From: Diadema setosum
Lineage: Eukaryota > Echinodermata > Echinoidea > Diadematoida > Diadematidae
NCBI GenBank assembly: GCA_033980235.1
Contig: CM067067.1
Location: 29,503,451 to 29,567,450, forward strand
DNA: 64,000 bases
Direction of reading: 5' to 3'
The notes under the pieces were generated by a model. The model did not search any database. It was not told the origin of the DNA and was given only the letters and a program-made list of their open reading frames with translations. The position numbers and the translations under genes are program-made. Shown here piece by piece: positions 3,700 through 59,191 of the stretch. Numbering within the stretch: position 1 is the stretch's first letter; every line of letters starts with the position of its first letter.

Positions 3700-6600
3700 C
3701 TGGAGAAAGGAGGCAACCAACCAACAGCATAGCACATTATGCCTTCCATTATCATCAGCCTCATATATGTCAGAGATTTGGTGACTCTTTTTTTCATGGA
3801 ACTTTGTTACCATGAAATGCAGCAATGTACATGAAAGCCCCAACCCACAGAAAATACACATAAAGATGGACAGCACCACAATCATTCCAATCTTGAGTCG
3901 ATAAACATTGCCATCATATTCTCTATTTACTCATGTCATCTTCCAAAGAATCCTATATGCAAATTATTTCCCTGACCCTTCAATTGAAGTTCAACTGAAA
4001 TCATGATACAAATAAGAATAGAATGGCAGTGGTATTAACGAATCCATACTCAAATGATGTACTAGTATCAAGTATCACCTAATGACGCACATGTCTGAAA
4101 TGTACCACACATTTCACTCAATGATATTTCCATAACGGTAAAGCCGTTGCCAAGTCTCTGCCCTATGTGGATGAAAAATCATTCAGCAAAAATTAAAGGG
4201 ATGCTGCTTTCCATGTTCAAGTAGAACTATTAAAAACAAAAATGAACGCTGAATGGAAAGACAAAGGTATCATGAAAATAAGACACAGTAGTTATGGAAC
4301 TTAAAAATGTTCAATGTTCCTTTGAAATCTGTGTAACAAAATAAAATTTGTAAATTGGAAGAGGAGCTACGATGACCACACCTCAAAACTCACCTACTGC
4401 ATTTTACTTACAATATCATCAGTAGCTATGCAACCATAATCCCTATTCAAAATGTCACTATATTGTTAAATCAATGTTGGACAAGAAGAATTTCATGTAA
4501 AGAATATGATCATTAGTTTTTCCCCTCTTGAGCAACTCATGACAAAATAAAAGGAAATCTAGTGAGGATTTTTTTTTTCCCTGTGCAAGTGAATAGGAGA
4601 CCTGTGAGCCGTGACATCATCAGCTCATCTGATGTATGTGATTATGACCATAATTACTATTCTGCTAAGTATGTGACACTTCAAATCACAATTCCATGCT
4701 AGTTTTAATGAACTTTTCATTGCGCAGTCTGCTTGATCACACATTCAAACGAGAGTGAAATTTCACCCTTAAGCACACGCAAAAACTCTGCACAGGTCTC
4801 CAGACTGTAATAACCAATACATAGATTCATGAAGACACACGTCTCTCCAATGGCAGCCACGACAGCTGGTCCCCACTCCAACATCTCATGCTTCCTACTC
4901 AATCAACTGTCACTCGTCAACTGAATATTCATCCTTAAACTATCGCATCAGTTTGGCTGGAGAGCTCTTAAATGAGAGTGAGGGATAGAAGTAGATCCGC
5001 AACCTGAAAGACAGCAGAATATAGCAAGAGGTATAGAGTATGAGACATAAGGAAATGGATAAAGGGCTAACATGAATATAAAGAGAAAGGGAGAGATAAG
5101 GAAAGAGAAAAGGCTAGAAAGATGCAGAGAAAGAGAGAGATGGAGAGAATATAGTAGGTAATTTAAACCAGGGTAGTATCTGGGTTGAGACAATTGAGAA
5201 TTGGATGACCCAGATGCAGGAAAATTGAAGCCGTGAGTCATGAATCAATATGTTACAATGCGGCTATACCTCTCTCTCCTTGCCTATTGGCCTGCCGTCA
5301 TTTGGGCAAGTAAACACAACAGTCTCCCATATCAACAAATACATAAAGAGCATTAACACATGTGGGGTAACATTGAAATGAATCAATAACAAAAGCACAA
5401 ACAGCCACCCAAGACACTAACAAGTTCTGCAGTTTCAGAAGGTCTGATATCATGAAGGCAAGAAATTAAAGTAGGTTTCCTTAACGACAGATTTCATCTC
5501 AGATTGCAGAAGCACATCAATGCATGCAATTCACGTAAACAAAACTTGCACTCTACAAAAGTTAAAAGTCACACTGCACTTTTACTGATCTTCAAATGGT
5601 CGTAAAATCCCCTTTGGCAGATTTTGCTAATGAATTAAGGGTATGATTGCTTTCTTGTGCTCCATTCTTTTAAGGAAAATCCTTTACAAATAATGTACAT
5701 CACTGATTTTCATATTAATTTCCTTCCTCGAAATGGCATCATGACAGGCTCATATCCTTCACACCAAATTTTTGTTCAATTTGTAATCAGATGATTCTAA
5801 AGGGAAAGAGGGATATAACAGCTACTTTATCAACCAAAAAACAACTCTTTTTTTTTTTTCAGAACACACTTGACGAATTGTGAAGTGTTTTGTCTAATTT
5901 CCGCTTGTAACTGTGAATGTATATCACTGTTTTGAACAAATTATATGAAACTTTGAAGTTTTACACCTTTATTCTTTATGTAAATTTGGTGAAATGCTCA
6001 ATGTTCTATATTAGCTTGAACATGATATTTCATGTTCAGAAAGCTGCTGCAGCCCATTATGAAAAGCCCCAATCCAATTTGTTCTTATTTTCATGAAACA
6101 ATAACCACCTTTGCACTGGCCTGAGGAGTCTGCGCTAGAAGAAAACAGGGTTGAAAAGTTGCAAGATTCTTCAGAACCACAAACAGCACTTCATATTTTT
6201 CTTTTAGCAATTATGTAGCTTCATAGTGTAAATAAACTCATCACTAAATTAGTTCCAATTCCATATTGATGCTAAGAACTCCTAATATTTTCTTCAAAAT
6301 CTGCAATTTCCACTATCCTTAACTTTTTAAAGTTTCCTTCATGTTCCTCTCTCTCTCTCTCTTTCTGCTCTTTTACATCAACAATATCACCATAGTGACC
6401 ATTCATGTACAATTTTCAATGTAGATTTCTTCTTTTTTTTTGGGGGGGGGGGAGGGGTGAGATTTGAACTAAAGGCATTTTGTACATGTTATGTATTTTG
6501 TGTGAACACAATGTATTGCTTATTCTTATGAAGATATAAAGATAAACCAAACTGAGTCTGTTTAGTAGATTGGATTACCAAAAAAAAAACAAAAAAAAAA

Positions 6601-41425: not shown

Positions 41426-42031
41426 TGTCCCCGCCGGAAGTAGCATTTTGTAGCAAAATGTACAATATAGGTCAAAAATCAAGGTCAAAGGTCAAAGAAG
41501 TCAAAGGTCAAAATTCTGTGTAGAAGTTTTGAAGCCCTCACCTAGTGCCATCACATAAAGCAAACGGAATCGAAATCGGGTTAGAAATGGCGAAGGAGTA
41601 GCATTTTGTAGCAAAATGTACAATACCTGTAGGTCAAAAATCAAGGTCAAAGGTCAAAGAAGTCAAAGGTCAAAATTCTGTGTAGAAGTTTTGAAGCCCT
41701 CACCTAGTGCCATCACATAAAGCAAACGGAATCGAAATCGGGTTAGAAATGGCGAAGGAGTAGCATTTTGTAGCAAAATGTACAATATAGGTCAAAGGTC
41801 AAGGTCAAAGGCCACAACTGAAATTCTGTGTAGAAGTTTCAAAGCTCCCATGTAGTGCTATCATATAAAGCAAACAGAATCAAAATTGGCTCATAAATGA
41901 CAGAGAAGTAGCAAATTGAACATTTTGATCACACAAGGACGCACACACACAAGGACACACACACACACGGACACACACACGTACGGAGCCCGTTTCATAG
42001 TCCCCTGCTCGAACTCGTTCGGCAGGGACGA
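41426..42031. mobile_element. TIR element of three ~160-bp units carrying DR1 motifs
   Basis: Weak inverted ends (TCCCCGCCGG at 41428; TTCGGCAGGGA at 42018) enclose three tandem units whose start phrase 'tagcattttgtagcaaaatg' recurs at 41441, 41599 and 41761. Each unit has AGGTCAAAGGTCA (41482, 41644, 41789). A (CACA)GGACG-type microsatellite precedes the right end. It has the same architecture as 32670 and 53362. It is non-coding. Confidence 0.8.
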
Positions 42032-44556
42032 TTAGCTTGTACAAAATTTAGTAAGTACATGCTATCTGAGAACATTTGTGTAACACGGCGAAGCTATGTA
42101 AAATAAGTTCCTACTATATGAAGTTACAATAAAATGCAAATGCAACTATGGATCACGCTTTAACAAAATGGCAATGAAACATAATGTCTTCTTCTTTTTT
42201 TCTTTTTTTTTAATTATTTATATTTTTCTCAGGTATAGTTCATGCATTGCATGTACTGCACAGTCTATGAAAGCAAACAGTGTTTAGTCTTGAAGTAAAA
42301 TATCATCAAGTCTTGAAGAGAGGCCAAATTAAGAGGCAGGACATGGGCTCAAGTACAATCCCCAAACCGACTTCAGCATCAGGTGACATTACCCTTGATA
42401 AGGTTTATTTGAAGTTTGGACTGCTTTACAATGGCTATCATTTCAGAGTTTATGATGAAAACTTTTAGCATTGACAACAAAACCATTGTTTCCATAAGGT
42501 ACTAATAGGCTAAGCACAGACTTTAAAAAAATGGTAAATATTGATACAGTACTTGTATCACTGTTGACATTTTTAGTTGCACAGTCAACAAAGTGGGTTT
42601 TTTTTTCAACTTATGCTTCAGTTTTCCCTTTATGTACACATGTACACTGCACTACTGTTTTTATTTGCATCACATGTCCTCACTTAATAGCTGCATATTT
42701 GTATTTCACCAATCAATGAATTTACAGGTTTCATAGTCTTGAATAAAATCATCACTTAACCATACATCTCATTGGTCCTTTCATTTATCAGATGAAACAT
42801 GTCTTGAAGGAAAATGCAATATAAAACACACCTTCACATTTATTTGTGCAGTAAACAATATAATTCAAGACATAGTGTCAGTACATCAAGTTGTAAATGA
42901 TAAAAAAAGCAATATTCTCTTTAAAATTGTTATTCTGCTGATAGTCCACACCTCTTTTACACTGTACAAAGCTCCTTGTTATGGTGTGTTGTGATTTGGT
43001 TTCAGAACACAGTCCAGTTCACAGTCAATCATATATTTGACCATGAATCACAACTAGAATTTTTTAATTAATCGGTTTTGGCATCAAATAAATCAAATTA
43101 TCTCAAATTGCGTCCTTCAGACAAAAGTCACAAGATATAACCTTGGCACCGCAGCACCTGCCACAAATAAGGGCAAGACCCGTCGTCATGTCTTTCAGAA
43201 AGGGGCCATGTAGCCACCAGCGGGTGTGGGAAGCTAAACTTTCTACCCCTCTCATTAGATCAAGTCCAGCTAACTGGAAATATGTTTCCAATTTGAGCCT
43301 GGGAGAAAGCGTGTTGTCTCCCACGTCTGCAGCAGACAGAGCAGAAAATTGAACGAATTGGAGCGATTCCTTTCTCCTTCTTCCACTCTTTCTTCCTAGC
43401 TTCACTTCTTGTTCTCCCTCTCTGCTTATTTTCTTCTCTTTACCTTTATGATCTCCTTCTTCACCTCCCCCCCCCTTTCTTTTTTTTTTAACTTCAAATC
43501 CACAATATGATGGTAGTAATGTTGGGTCCACACGCTATACTCCTGTCTGCACAGAATATGCTTACCAGTACTTACAATAGACTAACCTGAAGCAATTTGG
43601 CAGGGCACACAGTAGTATGAGATGTCTAAGCTGTATCATACTGCATATTATGAGGCATATGGATGGACTGAGGGACGGACAACCAATCATGTGTACCTCC
43701 AGCACATCAATCAAATTGTCATCATAGTCATTATTGCAACAAAACTCCCAATTAGTGTGCAGCTTTCATTAATGTTCTTATCCTTACTGTTTAATATCAT
43801 GCACGAAAAATCATATCAGAAATCATAATGAATGACTTTACACTAAATTACAGTCAAATCTATGGTCAATATCCAGTGCAGATATGTACAACAGTGTATG
43901 TACCTCACCAACCACCAAGATCTCAGATGGGTGATTTCTTCTTCTTCTTCTTCTTCTCCTCCTGCTCCTCCTCCTTCTCCTCCTCCTCCTCCTCCTCACA
44001 GGGTTCTGATTCCATTCTAGCCATAGAATCCCAGGGAAAGCATTTTGTAGCACTATGCATCAGTGCAACCATTAAACAAAACGATGTCTTATGTCATTCT
44101 TTCTTATCTACTGTCATCATTGTATCACTGATATCAAGCAGATCAATAAAGTCTCATAAATAAAAGAATCAGCCAGTGCATGGTGAAGTAAAGAAGTATG
44201 TTTAGAAGACATTTACTCTACACCTGCATGCCTTTTCCAGCCAGTGCCAGCCAGTATGATCAGCTGGAAGGACAATCAAGGACTATTGATTGGGACATTC
44301 ACTGCTCCAATGAGCTCAGACCAAAGGAATTCCTGAAAGTCACATCACCAATCAATAAACCTCCCTAAACGCTTGCTTTACCAAACCTTTACAAGTGACT
44401 TGTCACAATTTACAGGACAGTGCACTGCACAATGTGATTCATGCTGTTATATTCTAAAAACCTACAATGTACACTGTAAGCTGCATGGCCACCCCTGAAT
44501 GACCCTTTGTACCCCATCCTCATCCCCAGTCCCAATAAAAATTATTTTCATGTTCC
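42032..44556. other. Spacer without supported genes
   Basis: AT-rich DNA with an A/G-rich stretch on the minus strand at 43370-43490 and a (TTC/TCC)n tract at 43941-43997. A GC-richer patch lies at 43140-43350 and is open on both strands; it may be a repeat or exon relic but matches nothing I know. Confidence 0.5.
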
Positions 44557-44561
44557 CTGGG
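44557..44561. repeat. Target-site duplication, left copy (CTGGG)
   Basis: CTGGG directly precedes the left LTR, and the same five bases directly follow the right LTR at 44744+5000, that is 49744-49748. A 5-bp duplication is normal for Ty3/gypsy integrases. Confidence 0.95.
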
Positions 44562-44698
44562 TAGAGGAACTTGTATATATGTTATAGTGTTACTTCTCCA
44601 TCGTTTATATACCTTCTGCAGATTGTCAACATTGCTGACGTATGAGTCGAGCAATTAGAACCGCGACTCGAATGAGCAAAGAGTCAAAGACTTATTTA
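44562..44698 (+). repeat. Left LTR (137 bp)
   Basis: It starts TAGAGGAACTTG and ends GACTTATTTA. It holds two TATA-like stretches: TGTATATATG at 44572 and TTTATATA at 44604. An Inr-like 'tgcaga' lies at 44617. A hairpin pairs GAGTCG (44644) with CGACTC (44664). The segment 44621-44632 is complementary to the bases straddling the LTR end. No AATAAA signal is visible in the LTR. It is unusually short for a gypsy element. Confidence 0.97.
44621..44632 (+). promoter_or_regulatory. Putative self-primer segment GATTGTCAACAT in the LTR
   Basis: This 12-mer is the exact reverse complement of 44698-44709, the last LTR base plus the first 11 bases of the internal region. In Tf1 of fission yeast, 11 nt at the transcript's 5' end pair with the primer-binding site and are cleaved to prime minus-strand DNA. 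The same role is inferred here. Confidence 0.6.
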
Positions 44699-44709
44699 TG
44701 TTGACAATC
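44699..44709 (+). promoter_or_regulatory. Primer-binding site, self-complementary rather than tRNA-type
   Basis: The bases TGTTGACAATC start exactly at the first position after the LTR, where the primer-binding site must be. They lack the TGG needed to pair with a tRNA CCA end. They match the LTR segment at 44621 in perfect antisense. Priming by an internally cleaved tRNA remains possible. Confidence 0.6.
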
Positions 44710-44733
44710 ATAGACTGAGGTTTACCCACGACA

Positions 44734-47700
44734 ATGAGTGCCATCCCTTGCCCAGCACCCAGCTGCACAACCACATGGCCAGATACGACGCCAGCTGAGG
44801 TATTGACTCGTCTGATTGACCTCCATGCCCGGACGGCCCACCCCACCACCCCTGCCGGGCCCACAGCTCCCGCATCCGTCAAGGCAGAAAAGGTGAAGAG
44901 GCCAACCATAGCAGCAGCCGGGTCCAGCGAGGAATGGGCTTATTTCCTCCTGCGTTGGTCAGACTACAAGGCTGCTACCCACCTCACAGGGCCCGACATC
45001 ATATACCAACTGCTTGAATGCTGTGATGACAACCTCAGAAAGGACCTCACAAGGACCTTTGGGGCCCTTGCTTCCGAGGACGAATCGACCGTCCTCTCCC
45101 GCATGAAGACACTCGCCGTCCGCCAGGAGAACATCATGGTCGCACGTACGCAACTGCACCAGATGCACCAGGACAGGGACGAGCCAATACGGGCATTTGC
45201 AGCCCGTCTCCGTGGCCAAGCGAGCATTTGCAACTACCAGGTCACCTGCCCCTGCAGCAAAGAGGTGGACTACAGCCACACCATGATCCGGGATGCCCTC
45301 ATCCGAGGGCTGGCAGACGAGGATATACGCTTGGACATTTTAGGTGAGACTAGACAGGATATGACCCTTGAGGATGTGCTCGCCTTCGTTGAGGCCAAGG
45401 AGAGCGGCAAAAGATCTGCTGGCCGCATCCGCGGGGAGACCCCCCCTGCCACTGCCTCTGCTGCCGCAACAAGCTCCTATCGCCGCCATGTAAAGGGCCA
45501 CACCCCGGGCCCCCCTATTGATCCTCCCTCACCCACACTCCCATGTGGGCACTGTGGTCGGCCAGGCCATGGTCCCACCAGACCGGAACGGCAAAAGGAA
45601 TGTCCAGCCTACAACCACCAGTGCTCCAAGTGTGGCATCCTCCACCATTTTGAGTCAGTGTGCCGCCAGGCTAACCGTAAGCGCCGACCGCCGAAGGCCA
45701 CCCCTTCTGCCAACGCCATGCCAACCAATGCCGCCACTGCAGTTTTCAACTCCCTTTGCTCCCTTACCAGCCCTCCCCCTCCTCCCTCCAGTGACCTGCG
45801 GCTCGACCATCACGTGTACAATGAACTCTCTCAAGTATGGGAGAAGCGTGCCTCGGACCCACAGCCCACTGTCACCGTCTGCATCCGGGCCATCCCATCA
45901 GACATTCGAGCCCTTGGGTTCCCGGCACGCTTCCTCCGCCCTACACCCGTTGTCCACTACCTTGCAATGGCTGACACTGGCTGCCAATCCTGCCTTGCTC
46001 CCACCTCTCTCCTGCGGACTCTTGGCCTGACAAAGCGCCACCTGCTCCCTGTCAACCTCCACATGACCGCTGCCAATGAGAACAAGATTGACATTGCGGG
46101 TGCCCTGGTGCTCAGGGTGTCCAGCACCTCCCCATCAGGGCAGATTGTCGAAACCCGCCAGATTGTCTATTTCAGCGATGCTGCCACCCGCCTTTTCCTC
46201 TCCCGGCAAGCTTGTGTTGCCATGGGGCTGGTCCGGAAGGACTTCCCGACGATCCACGAGCGGCAGGAACCCACCGCAGGGACCACGGCCTCTTTGTCCA
46301 CCCCAGCGTCCTCCACGCCCACTCCGTGCCAATGCCCTACACGCACCGCACCACCCCCACCTCCTTCTACGTTGCCGTTCCCAGCCACCGAGGGAAACCG
46401 TGGGAAGCTCGAGGACTGGCTACGGGAGTACTACGCCAGCAGCTCCTTCAACGTTTGTGAGCACCAGCCACTTCCCATGATGTCCGGCCCACCAATGCGT
46501 CTCATGGTGGACCGTAATGCCCAGCCCGTGGCCTTCCACACCCCGATACCTGTTCCAATCCACTGGCAGGACGACGTCAAAGCGGGCCTCGACCAGGACG
46601 TTCGCCTCGGAGTGATTGAACCGGTCCCCATTGGCACACCTGTCACCTGGTGTCACAGGATGGTGGTCTGCCCCAAGAAGTCAGGCAAGCCAAGACGCAC
46701 AGTCGACTTTCAGCCGTTGAACCAGCATGCTGTTCGCGAGACCCACCACACCCAATCACCATTTCATCAGGCCAGAATCATTCCACCACACACCCGCAAG
46801 ACTGTGTTTGATGCGTGGAATGGCTATCACAGCATAGCTCTTGATGAGCGCGACCGGGACCTCACGACCTTCATCATCCCCTGGGGTCGCTACAGATATT
46901 GTGTTGCCCCCCAGGGCTACATTGCATCTGGTGATGGTTATAGCCGACGTTTTGATGAGGTTGTTGCCGACATCCCAAGGAAGACGAAATGCGTGGATGA
47001 CACCCTCATATGGTCCGACACTATTGAAGAGGCATTCTTCCAGGCCGCGAATTGGCTCGACACCTGTGGGCGCAATGGCATCACACTCAACCCCTCCAAG
47101 TTTGTGTTTGCGCAACAAACAGTGGAATTCGCAGGCTTTGAAATCACCCCAACTGCCGTTCGACCTTGTCCTCAATTCTTGAGGGCCATTCGCGATTTTC
47201 CTACCCCTACAAGTATCACCGACATCCGTAGTTGGTTTGGCTTGATCAACCAGGTATCCTATGCCTTCGCTTCGGCAGAGCGCATGTTGCCATTCCGTGC
47301 CCTGCTGAAACCTGACACACCCTTCGTTTGGACCACACAGCTGAATTCCTTGTTTGAGGAATCCAAACGCCTGATCATCGCTGAGATTCACAATGGAGTG
47401 GAAATCTTCGACAAGGGTCGTTCCACCTGCCTTGCAACTGATTGGAGTAAAGATGGGATCGGCTTTTGGCTCCTCCAGAAACACTGCTCATGCTCATCCA
47501 CCAGGCCATTCTGTTGCAAGACTGGCTGGAAGACCACCCTGGTGGGTAGTCGCTTCACGTCCCGCGCAGAGTCTCGCTATGCCCCGATAGAAGGCGAGGC
47601 TCTTGCTGTCATCGATGCTTTAGACAAGGCTCGCCACTTCGTCATCGGATGCTCTGACCTCATCGTGGCCGTTGATCACAAACCCCTGCTCAAAACCTTT

Positions 47701-49548
47701 GGTGATCGTTCCCTCAATGACATCCCGAACCCCCGTCTTCGCAACTTGAAAGAAAAGTCGCTACGCTATCGTTTCCGGATGGTCCATGTCCCAGGTGTCC
47801 GCCACGCAGCAGCCGATGCCGTCTCCCGCCACCCTGTCGGGAAACCACAGCAATTGTCTCTCCCCGACGACGTTGCAGCCCTTCAGGACCCTGCTGCAAC
47901 TCATGCCCCACCTCCACTACCTCCAGGACTCCTGCTTGACTTACATACCCCTGCTGAGACCACTTCCCAGACCTGCACAGCAAGTGCTTCTCCCCCTACA
48001 GAGATTGTCAAATCTGTCACTTGGGATGCTGTGCGCCTAGCCATGACAAGTGATCCATCCATGTCCCTGCTGCTGGAGGCTATCGAACAGGGCTTCCCCG
48101 AGAACCGCAATGACCTCCCGCCTGACCTTCGCCAGTTTCACCAGTTCAGAGACTCCCTTTCCCACTTTGACGGTGTGGCATTGTATCGTGATCGTGTAGT
48201 CATCCCCCCTTCCCTCCGTGGCCGCGTGCTGCAGGCCCTACACTCGGCACATCAGGGTATCACACAAATGTGCTCACGGGCTGAATCGTCCATATTTTGG
48301 CCTGGCATGACCCCCGCGATCACTGAGATGCGCACAAGGTGTTCTTCCTGCAATCGCATGGCACCGTCCCAGCCCGCTGCACCCCCTACTCCACCTGCAT
48401 CTCCAGCCTACCCTTTCCAGTGCATTGCCGCTGACTATTTCCACTTCCAGGGCCATAACTACCTCGTCATTGTGGATAGGTACAGCAATTGGCCCATTGT
48501 CGAGGAGGCCGCCACTGGAGCTGATGGACTCATTACTGCCCTACGGCGCATTTTCGTCACGTACGGCATCAGTGACGAGCTGTCTTCCGATGGAGGGCCT
48601 GAATTCACATCCCACAAAACGGCTACCTTCCTCCACAACTGGGGTGTTCGACACAGGATTTCGTCCGTTGCCTTCCCCCACAGCAATTGCCGTGCGGAAG
48701 TGGGTGTGAAGACAGTGAAGCGGCTTCTCACCGGCAACGTCAACAGTGATGGCAAACTGAACTCTGATCAGTTCCAACGGGCGATGTTACAGTATAGGAA
48801 CACGCCAGATCGGGACACAGGATTATCGCCCGCAATGTGCCTTTTTGGCAGATCTATCCGGGACTTCATCCCAATACACCCAGGGAGGTACCATCCACAC
48901 CACACCTGGAAGGACACCTTAAGCGCGCGAGAGGAAGCGCCCCGCCATCGACACATGCGGGTTTCCGAGCGCTTATCCGAGCACACCCGCCATCTACCAC
49001 CCTTGGTCATTGGAGATTCAGTGCGCATCCAAAACCAGACTGGCCCTTACCCCACCAAATGGGACAAGACTGGCATCATCGTGGAAGTCCGCCAGTTTGA
49101 CCAATATGTGGTGCGCGTTGATGGATCTGGCCGCGTCACCCTTCGGAATCGGCGCTTCCTCCGCAAGTTTACACCCGTTGTGCCCCGTGCACCGCTCTGC
49201 ATGTCCCCCACCCCGCCGGCCGTGTCACCCTCCTATCCTGTGGTACATCAGTCCCGCCCCGCCTCCACAGACGCACCTCCACCGGCCCGTTTGGACCCAC
49301 CTCCTGCTACGACCCCTCCAGCCGTTCCGCCCATTCGCCCGCAGGCTGACGACATCCCACCCCCTGCTACTGCCCCTCAACCTGGATGCCCGCCCCAAGA
49401 CCCTGGTCCTTCGGCACGGCTTCCACGGGCACTTACCTCCCTCCTCCCACACAACGCCCCAGGTCTCAAGGAACGCCCCGTTGCTGACCTTGCCACCTCC
49501 GCGCCTCCAGGACCTCGACGATCCCCCCGTCTCCACCCCCCAGTATAG
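44734..49548 (+). CDS. Gag-Pol polyprotein, single 1604-aa frame
   Basis: The ATG at 44734 has A at -3 and is the first in-frame Met 35 nt after the LTR. Gag (about 1-310) ends in two zinc knuckles: C271-x2-C274-x4-H279-x10-C290 and C297-x2-C300-x4-H305-x4-C310. The protease has 'MADTGCQS' with D414-T-G416. Reverse transcriptase shows '[10 protein letters not shown]' (D693) and 'KCVDDTLIW' (D755-D756), with Cys where Tyr/Phe is usual. RNase H residues are D903, E955, D981 and D1028. Integrase has H1170/H1173 with C1203-x2-C1206, then D1234, D1286 and E1322 with the standard 35-residue D-E spacing, followed by a GPY/F-type module at G1437-P-Y1439. A Pro-rich tail fills 1480-1604. All catalytic residues are present. 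Gag and pol are fused with no frameshift or stop, so proteolysis must set the Gag:Pol ratio, as in Tf1. No chromodomain is recognised. Confidence 0.96.
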
Positions 49549-49590
49549 CTTAACAAGGGAACATTTTATGGACAAATCTTTGACTGCCTC

Positions 49591-49606
49591 AAAGACTGGG
49601 GGGGCA
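49591..49606 (+). promoter_or_regulatory. Polypurine tract with G7 and a CA dinucleotide before the right LTR
   Basis: The sequence AAAGACTGGGGGGGCA directly precedes the right LTR. The G-run (49598-49604) is the likely plus-strand primer. The extra CA between it and the LTR would be the dinucleotide trimmed by integrase. Confidence 0.75.
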
Positions 49607-49743
49607 TAGAGGAACTTGTATATATGTTATAGTGTTACTTCTCCATCGTTTATATACCTTCTGCAGATTGTCAACATTGCTGACGTATGAGTCGAGCAAT
49701 TAGAACCGCGACTCGAATGAGCAAAGAGTCAAAGACTTATTTA
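49607..49743 (+). repeat. Right LTR (137 bp)
   Basis: It matches the left LTR at every position by eye, with the same length and ends. It follows the polypurine tract and is followed by CTGGG. Confidence 0.97.
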
Positions 49744-49748
49744 CTGGG
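49744..49748. repeat. Target-site duplication, right copy (CTGGG)
   Basis: The five bases after the right LTR repeat those before the left LTR (44557-44561). Confidence 0.95.
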
Positions 49749-57458: not shown

Positions 57459-59191
57459 TGGGCCGAATGCATAAAACAAGCAATTGCTTGTAAGCAATTG
57501 CTTCAAGCAAAAGCACAAGCTCGTCTAGTAAAAGGTGTAGCTCAAGCAATTGCTTAAATACATATGCATAATCTTTTGCTTGTGCACATACCTTTTGCTT
57601 GCATTCAGCAAGCAATTGCTTAGGGTTCGAACAATAGCGTCACGCCTGTGCGAACACAAGAACAAAGGCGAGTGTGGCAGCATGCATTTGAAAGGGCATG
57701 TGTGTGCGGAAACATTTCCTGACATAGCAGAAGAGCCATAAAATGACACTCATAAATGCACACACAGACGCACACACACACAACTATACACACACTCGTA
57801 TTACTGGCTGATTCCCACCACTGCTTACAATGGGCCGAATGCATAAAACAAGCAATTGCTTGTAAGCAATTGCTTCAAGCAAAAGCACAAGCTCGTCTAG
57901 TAAAAGGTGTAGCTCAAGCAATTGCTTAAATACATATGCATAATCTTTTGCTTGTGCACATACCTTTTGCTTGCATTCAGCAAGCAATTGCTTAGGGTTC
58001 GAACAATAGCGTCACGCCTGTGCGAACACAAGAACAAAGGCGAGTGTGGCAGCATGCATTTGAAAGGGCATGTGTGTGCGGAAACATTTCCTGACATAGC
58101 AGAAGAGCTATGAAATGACACTCATAAATGCACACACAGACGCACACACACACAACTATAAACACACTCGTATTACTGGCTGATTCCCACCACTGCTTAC
58201 AATAGCCCGCATCTGCCAGATCGCACGTGGAGAGACGTCTCCTTGCTCTCCACCAAAGTGAGACATCCTACCTGTTTTTCATCAAATTTTGCGTGCTAAC
58301 CACTGGACATTCCCGTTGTTGAAATGAAAAATTTCTTACTCTACTTAAGAGTAATTTCTTGTAGATTTATACCACTCCTTCACAATTGTTGTCTTTCTTC
58401 CATGAATATGAAAATGATACTTAAAAGGGAACGTCCCAGATAAGCAAAAGCTCAAGCTCATTTTACAGAGCTTGGAAAATCGTAAGCAATTGCTAGCAAG
58501 AACTAGCAAAAGGTATGTTTTATGCATACGTTTTTAAGCAAATGCTTGGTCTCTAAGCAATTGCTTGCGGACAGCAAGCAATTGCTTGTACTTGCTAGCA
58601 AGAGCTTCTGCTCGCAAGCAATTGCTTGTTTTTATGCATACGGATTCGAGTAAAAGGCTAGCACAAGCAATTGCTAGCGTTTATGCATCCGGCCCACTAG
58701 CCCGCATCTGCCAGATCGCACGTGAAGAGACGTCTCCTTGCTCTCCACCGAAGTGAGACATCCTACCTGTTTTTTATCAAATTTTGCGTGCTAACCACTG
58801 GACATTCCCGTTGTTGAAATGAAAAATTTCTTACTCTACTTAAGAGTAATTTCTTGTAGATTTATACCACTCCTTCACAATTGTTGTCTTTCTTCCATGA
58901 ATATGAAAATGATACTTAAAAGGGAACGTCCCAGATAAGCAAAAGCTCAAGCTCATTTTACAGAGCTTGGAAAATCGTAAGCAATTGCTAGCAAGAACTA
59001 GCAAAAGGTATGTTTTATGCATACGTTTTTAAGCAAATGCTTGGTCTCTAAGCAATTGCTTGCGGACAGCAAGCAATTGCTTGTACTTGCTAGCAAGATC
59101 TTCTGCTCGCAAGCAATTGCTTGTTGTTATGCATACGGATTCGAGTAAAAGGCTAGCACAAGCAATTGCTAGCGTTTATGCATCCGGCCCA
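57459..59191. mobile_element. TIR element nested in itself (L-L-R-R), AAGCAATTGCTT-rich
   Basis: The outer ends are TGGGCCGAATGCATAAAA and TTTATGCATCCGGCCCA. A 372-bp left part occurs twice in tandem (57459 and 57831) and a 495-bp right part twice (58204 and 58699). Copies differ by only a few bases each. Every left part starts with the left TIR and every right part ends with the right TIR. The palindrome AAGCAATTGCTT or AGCAATTGCTAGC occurs about twenty times. No protein is encoded. Confidence 0.85.

Follow-up and report, generated by a model that had tools for sequence, protein, structure and literature searches.

A Ty3/gypsy-type family of short-LTR retrotransposons with covarying LTR-leader complementarity, very probably primed by its own RNA

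The locus is occupied by an LTR retrotransposon with both ends present, at 44562-49743 on the + strand of a 64-kb window (the whole stretch of DNA that was analysed, 64,000 nucleotides). Direct-repeat comparison gave a 5' LTR (44562-44698) and a 3' LTR (49607-49743) of 137 bp each, 100% identical, in agreement with the very short LTRs reported in the initial annotation. The LTR reads TAGAGG...TTATTTA, not TG...CA. A target-site duplication, CTGGG, flanks the element on the left (44557-44561) and on the right (49744-49748), and its presence on both sides makes the borders exact. According to the ORF list, a single Gag-Pol ORF of 1604 aa extends from 44734 to 49548 on the + strand. It contains, in order, a weak match to an aspartyl protease, below the Pfam cut-off (45961-46062; PF13650, E 0.028), a reverse transcriptase (RT) domain (46672-47145; PF00078, E 2.9e-14), an RNase H domain which is the proposed primer cutter (47545-47712; PF17917, E 1.3e-9), an integrase zinc-binding domain (48202-48366; PF17921, E 1e-11) and a partial match to the integrase core, below the curated cut-off (48529-48669; PF00665, E 2.4e-5). 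The CVDD motif previously noticed in the RT is found within the PF00078 match. The order RT - RNase H - integrase is that of Ty3/gypsy elements, and among solved relatives of the RT, Ty3 ranks first. A polypurine-tract region, AAAGACTGGGGGGGCA, with a G-run before the 3' LTR, is present on the + strand at 49591-49606, and a similar G-run precedes the 3' LTRs of the other subfamilies described below. Two further repeated structures are visible in the window: an array of units of about 162 bp at 41439-41918, two copies of which are identical over 158 bp, and two adjacent near-perfect tandem duplications at 57459-59191, one with 372-bp units (99% matches) and the other with 495-bp units (98% matches).

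The start of the internal region was then compared with the LTR. The 12-nt antisense match claimed in the initial annotation is exact: bases 44698-44709 (ATGTTGACAATC) are the reverse complement of 44621-44632. Since 44698 is the last base of the LTR, as fixed by the LTR pair and the CTGGG duplication, the slot downstream of the LTR is counted as 11 nt (44699-44709, TGTTGACAATC), and the twelfth pair, 44632-44698, crosses the LTR border. This putative primer-binding slot is flush with the LTR end. Its partner, the putative self-primer arm GATTGTCAACA (44621-44631, + strand, LTR position 60-70), would be the 5' end of the RNA. There is no TGG at the beginning of the internal region, nor anywhere in its first 25 bases. 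The match had been considered very unlikely by chance, and shuffling bears this out: when the LTR was dinucleotide-shuffled 200,000 times, a flush match of at least 11 nt arose 11 times. Under a looser null, in which each position of the 64-kb window is compared with the preceding 137 bases, a match of at least 11 nt occurs at about 0.3% of positions (171/63,823), a rate due to the ordinary inverted repeats that the window contains.

RNA folding predicts a leader closed by the helix between arm and slot, with two hairpins nested inside: P2 (44633-44678) and a small hairpin, P3 (44681-44693), directly before the LTR end, both on the + strand. The nested hairpin proposed earlier is recovered in the predicted fold (-29.2 kcal/mol, z -4.24), where 44643-44649 pair with 44664-44670. 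The TATA-like stretches, as already stated in the initial annotation, do not lie at a textbook distance from the presumed RNA start. A search of Rfam with 44500-44900 yielded no ribozyme; a match to Vax2os1_2 in this interval, at 9.9 bits compared with a family threshold of 55, was taken as chance.

Copies of the element were searched for in the source genome (885.7 Mb, 96 contigs); the copy counts given here are lower bounds, 131 of the 1656 candidates having been scored. The closest copies, which together with the window element are called subfamily A, are three further LTR-bounded insertions elsewhere in the genome, flanked by the target-site duplications GTTTT, ATGTG and CATAT. Both LTRs are identical within each of these three insertions, and arm and slot are unchanged. 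In copy C17, 48 bases are inserted directly behind the slot. Single-LTR or deleted derivatives (L025/L028, L026 and L027/L029) were kept outside the count of 11 insertions used below. At L028 (G000:C17:21190000-21199999, reverse strand 1451-1598) the family match comprises the LTR and exactly the 11-nt slot, ending at the slot's last base, and is followed by unrelated sequence; as it stops exactly there, the slot acts like the edge of a module. The unrelated sequence of L028 has an open frame, no second LTR is found within the 10-kb piece, and this locus could be a chimeric or co-opted LTR. At L026 arm and slot have decayed. In L029 (G000:C19:10288000-10297999, reverse strand 4363-5722), a deleted derivative, the two LTRs are about 1.1 kb apart and diverge unequally from the window LTR (89% and 81%).

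With the RT piece as protein query, more distant members of the family were located in the genome. Apart from the four close copies, 11 in-family RT loci were followed up on their 5' side, other, truncated places being left out. Seven of the 11 carry the LTR-slot inverted repeat or its remains and, once their 3' sides are added, all seven give LTR pairs of 114, 120 or 125 bp, 97.5-100% identical and bounded by perfect 5-bp target-site duplications. They fall into subfamilies B (three insertions; GTAAG, CTGAC, CAGTC), C (three insertions; CTATT, CCAAG, ATAAT) and D (one insertion; GACTG). In total, 5-bp target-site duplications bound 11 of the 11 LTR-bounded insertions of the source genome. Family LTRs measure 114-137 bp, start with TAGAGG, TAGAGA, TATAGG or TAGACA and end with TTATTTA, TTATTGA or TTATCTA. 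The remaining four loci (L064, L065, L066 and L070) show no arm-like repeat and no recognisable LTR on the 5' side, the side taken for them. Their RT hits contain stop codons, as do those of the arm-bearing C20 and C11. Small open frames resembling one another (MDAFSLNVSHQPVKRS or a near variant of it) recur in the pieces upstream of these four broken RTs, and the four loci are possibly fragments of the family inside another repeat.

A fifth subfamily, E, is represented by L001, the single locus returned by the contig search of genomes, a 5200-base contig from a metagenome-assembled genome (MAG) labelled as a bacterium endosymbiont of Escarpia laminata. The ends of this contig overlap by 77 nt, closing it on itself. 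It contains one LTR, so that the LTR end of subfamily E is placed by reference to the other subfamilies. We infer that L001 is host DNA. The same MAG contains several short Gypsy contigs (L001, L011-L016), of which 4 of the 7 examined close on themselves with a 77-nt overlap; these contigs are likely host DNA in a bacterial bin. Scans of IMG/VR returned no relatives.

The five subfamilies have five different slots: TGTTGACAATC in A, TGATTACAGCATCT in B, TGACGACAACAT in C, TGAACACGGTAT in D and TGATCGCAACTCAAT in E. Each is a perfect flush antisense match to its own LTR, over 11 nt in A, 14 in B, 12 in C, 12 in D and 15 in E, the match of the window element being thus the shortest. Against the LTRs of the other four subfamilies the match, counted from the slot start, is at most 5 nt. 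Shuffled LTRs equal the observed match in 2/40,000 cases for A and in 0/40,000 for each of B, C, D and E. The arm is located at LTR position 52-60 in all five subfamilies. The perfect own match is kept in 10 of the 11 insertions of the source genome, as well as in the tubeworm-MAG copy; the one insertion lacking it, L068 (subfamily B), is damaged, its RT having been recovered solely in pieces. All five arms end with CA at their 3' end, and the next base pairs with the last base of the LTR. In subfamilies A to D the pairing stretch is preceded by GCAG, CCAG, CGAG or TGTAG, the last one or two letters of which also pair in A and B; this short motif could be an initiator.

To compare the arms they were counted from their 3' ends, because those of A and of the tubeworm MAG are too divergent for MAFFT. 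Pairwise between subfamilies, 3-7 differences are observed over 11-14 shared positions from the primer 3' end, and since both arms of each subfamily pair perfectly these differences fall on both sides of the helix. With an alignment of the five sequences and no constraint, RNAalifold predicted the arm-slot helix, of 13 pairs, as the sole helix. Two-sided changes affect nine of these pairs, and no pair has a one-sided change. By direct count, 63 of the 63 cells of the helix are paired, compared with 15-51% in controls with slid partners. None of 500 shuffles reached the paired fraction or the covariation score; in all, four of five measures were reached by 0/500 and the fifth (further pair types) by 50/500, shuffle counts which are not to be read as probabilities because five sequences are few and related. 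The cross-match between slots and LTRs is plainer evidence. The initial annotation had suggested looking for compensatory changes between copies, and these are what we find: five different arms, each complementary only to its own LTR, with 9/13 pairs changed on both sides.

These results bear on two other explanations of the inverted repeat. The first is that the element is primed in the ordinary way by a tRNA, through an internal fragment of the half-tRNA type, the repeat being coincidental. Half-tRNA primers occur in some Ty1/copia lineages (PMC6317226), but the five different slots of a single family cannot all be the same tRNA fragment, every slot matches its own LTR and none starts with TGG; we regard this explanation as extremely improbable. 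Other Gypsy elements served as controls. Six other Gypsy copies of the source genome were hand-picked from RT hits at 28-33% identity (those taken, 29-33%), LTR borders not being set. In the 2.4 kb upstream, 0/6 has an inverted repeat of at least 12 nt (spacer 25-130); the longest, in L073, is 11 nt and A/T-only, and repeats of 10 nt are found in L073, L074 and L075. As expected for tRNA priming, a ACATGGTG-type site is present in 5 of these 6 copies. Six other Gypsy contigs of the tubeworm-symbiont MAG, for each of which one non-coding stretch was chosen from the ORF tables, gave no inverted repeat of at least 10 nt (spacer 15-160) in that stretch, and one repeat of 9 nt was seen in L011.

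The second explanation is that the helix has been conserved as an RNA structure that serves packaging, dimerisation or translation, with no role as a primer. A leader helix with nested hairpins would look alike in that case, the single-strand folds of the five leaders having z scores from -3.9 to -6.8. A structure alone, however, has no need to end at the LTR border, and in five subfamilies the 3' arm occupies precisely the place of a primer-binding site, directly adjoining the LTR end, with no TGG site there. This makes a purely structural role very unlikely. We consider that this Ty3/gypsy-type LTR retrotransposon very probably primes its minus-strand DNA with the 5' end of its own RNA, in the manner of Tf1. 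The self-priming proposed in the initial annotation is supported with this strength by the five subfamilies with their private arms, by the two-sided changes and by the close copies in which both arms are unchanged. The slot position, the exact borders, the compensatory change and the absent TGG site are direct observations.

The following course of events may be proposed. The RNA would start at 44621 or one base earlier, and its first 11 nt (GAUUGUCAACA) would fold onto the slot at 44699-44709, the two small hairpins of the predicted fold lying between. By analogy with Tf1, the RNase H of the element would cut after ...CA and before the next U. The freed CA-3'OH would be extended from the last base of the LTR, which would set the LTR border. 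The CA ends of the arms, and the pairing of the next base with the last LTR base, fit such a Tf1-like cut and extension. The plus strand would later copy the attached primer, with the effect that each cycle would rewrite the slot with the arm as template, which would explain how the two arms change together and yet stay perfectly paired. The idea of slot rewriting is modelled on the inheritance of the primer-binding site (PBS) in retroviruses.

Protein comparisons help to situate the family. The RT-RNase H-integrase piece has relatives of up to 78% identity, and an organism name is attached to 10 of the best 120 of 1773. The named relatives are from Mytilus (two), Nucella, Batillaria, Aplysia, Elysia (two), Mizuhopecten, the sea anemone Actinostola and a tubeworm-symbiont MAG; by group, they are eight molluscs and one sea anemone, the tenth being the MAG. 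The Pfam chromodomain, PF00385, is absent from the best 120 of these 1773 relatives (0 of 120), some of the proteins ending before that region. As claimed earlier, no chromodomain was recognised in the window element, the last 262 residues of the ORF (48760-49548) giving no Pfam match even at E 5, and the four C-terminal pieces taken from subfamilies B, C and D gave no match to one either. Two Tf1/sushi traits, a chromodomain after the integrase and TG...CA ends of the LTRs, were thus looked for and not found. Taken at the level of sequence, the data support Tf1-like self-priming in a Ty3/gypsy lineage with no detectable chromodomain and with LTRs of 114-137 bp.

It could be argued that the element is a Tf1/sushi chromovirus which has lost its chromodomain, the mechanism being inherited and not independent. 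Self-priming is common to Tf1/sushi elements (PMC10085805, PMC4600332), and the best solved relative of the RT is, as said above, Ty3. We nevertheless find this doubtful, given that no chromodomain was found in the last 262 residues of the window ORF or in the four pieces from B, C and D, the 0 of the best 120 relatives with PF00385 (some ending early), and family LTRs that neither start with TG nor end with CA. On balance we favour the reading that an animal Ty3/gypsy lineage distinct from the chromoviruses evolved or retained reverse transcription primed by its own RNA, a lineage in which the primer would rewrite its own site at each cycle, the arms would drift together and each subfamily would have come to a private primer. 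The scope of this reading is one animal genome and one contig from the MAG of the tubeworm symbiont, protein relatives occurring in molluscs and in a sea anemone.

That an animal element should prime itself is not in itself new, since the mechanism has been invoked for hosts ranging from fungi to vertebrates (PMC4600332). For elements of the present kind we found no report in the literature searched, whose coverage leaves out most subscription papers. If an invertebrate family outside Tf1/sushi, backed by covariation, does prime itself, freedom from host tRNAs would be commoner than thought. This would also explain how such elements can escape programs that expect TG..CA termini and a TGG site, and the subfamilies would offer natural variant pairs for testing the recognition of an RNA primer by RT and RNase H.

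Several known systems can be compared with the family. The MolGy and PolGy clades, Mag and CsRn1 (Gypsy elements of molluscs and annelids) fit by host group and by Ty3/gypsy type, and the family may belong to one of them; our RT tree covers members of the family only. In surveys of mollusc and polychaete Gypsy elements, the terms 'PBS' or 'primer binding' never occur (PMC6238403, PMC8556966). A bivalve TRIM is described as having no clear PBS, and no mechanism is proposed there (PMC6934838). Skipper, of dictyostelids, has neither a TGG site nor a complementary LTR segment, and unconventional priming has been proposed for it (PMC5006619); it thus resembles the family in the first respect and differs from it in the second. 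For the plant lineages Tcn1 and TAR, self-priming has been predicted from LTR-slot complementarity (PMC6317226), a complementarity of the same sort as the one described here; unlike the family, Tcn1 is a plant chromovirus and TAR a plant Ty1/copia lineage.

The closest comparison is with the Tf1/sushi group. In the literature consulted, self-priming is demonstrated in the case of Tf1; it has been inferred both for the other Tf1/sushi elements, in fungi, vertebrates and non-seed plants, and for a single copia lineage of plants. The Tf1 RNA anneals to the PBS through its first 11 bases, and RNase H cleaves it between bases 11 and 12 (PMC7175516); in Tj1, the PBS is complementary to the RNA 5' end (PMC4600332). 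Tf1/sushi chromoviruses are described as self-primed elements that have a chromodomain and whose leader folds into a three-duplex 'pretzel' (PMC10085805); the LTRs of fission-yeast elements shown in that paper end with CA, and those of sushi are TG..CA (PMC3601003). The family differs from Tf1/sushi in having no detectable chromodomain and LTRs of 114-137 bp reading TAGAGG..TTTA or close to it. The leader of the family is predicted as one closing helix with nested hairpins, by a fold prediction limited to nested pairs. Like Tf1, Tf2, Tj1 and sushi, the family has no tRNA-type site and possesses a slot which adjoins the LTR and is complementary to an LTR segment.
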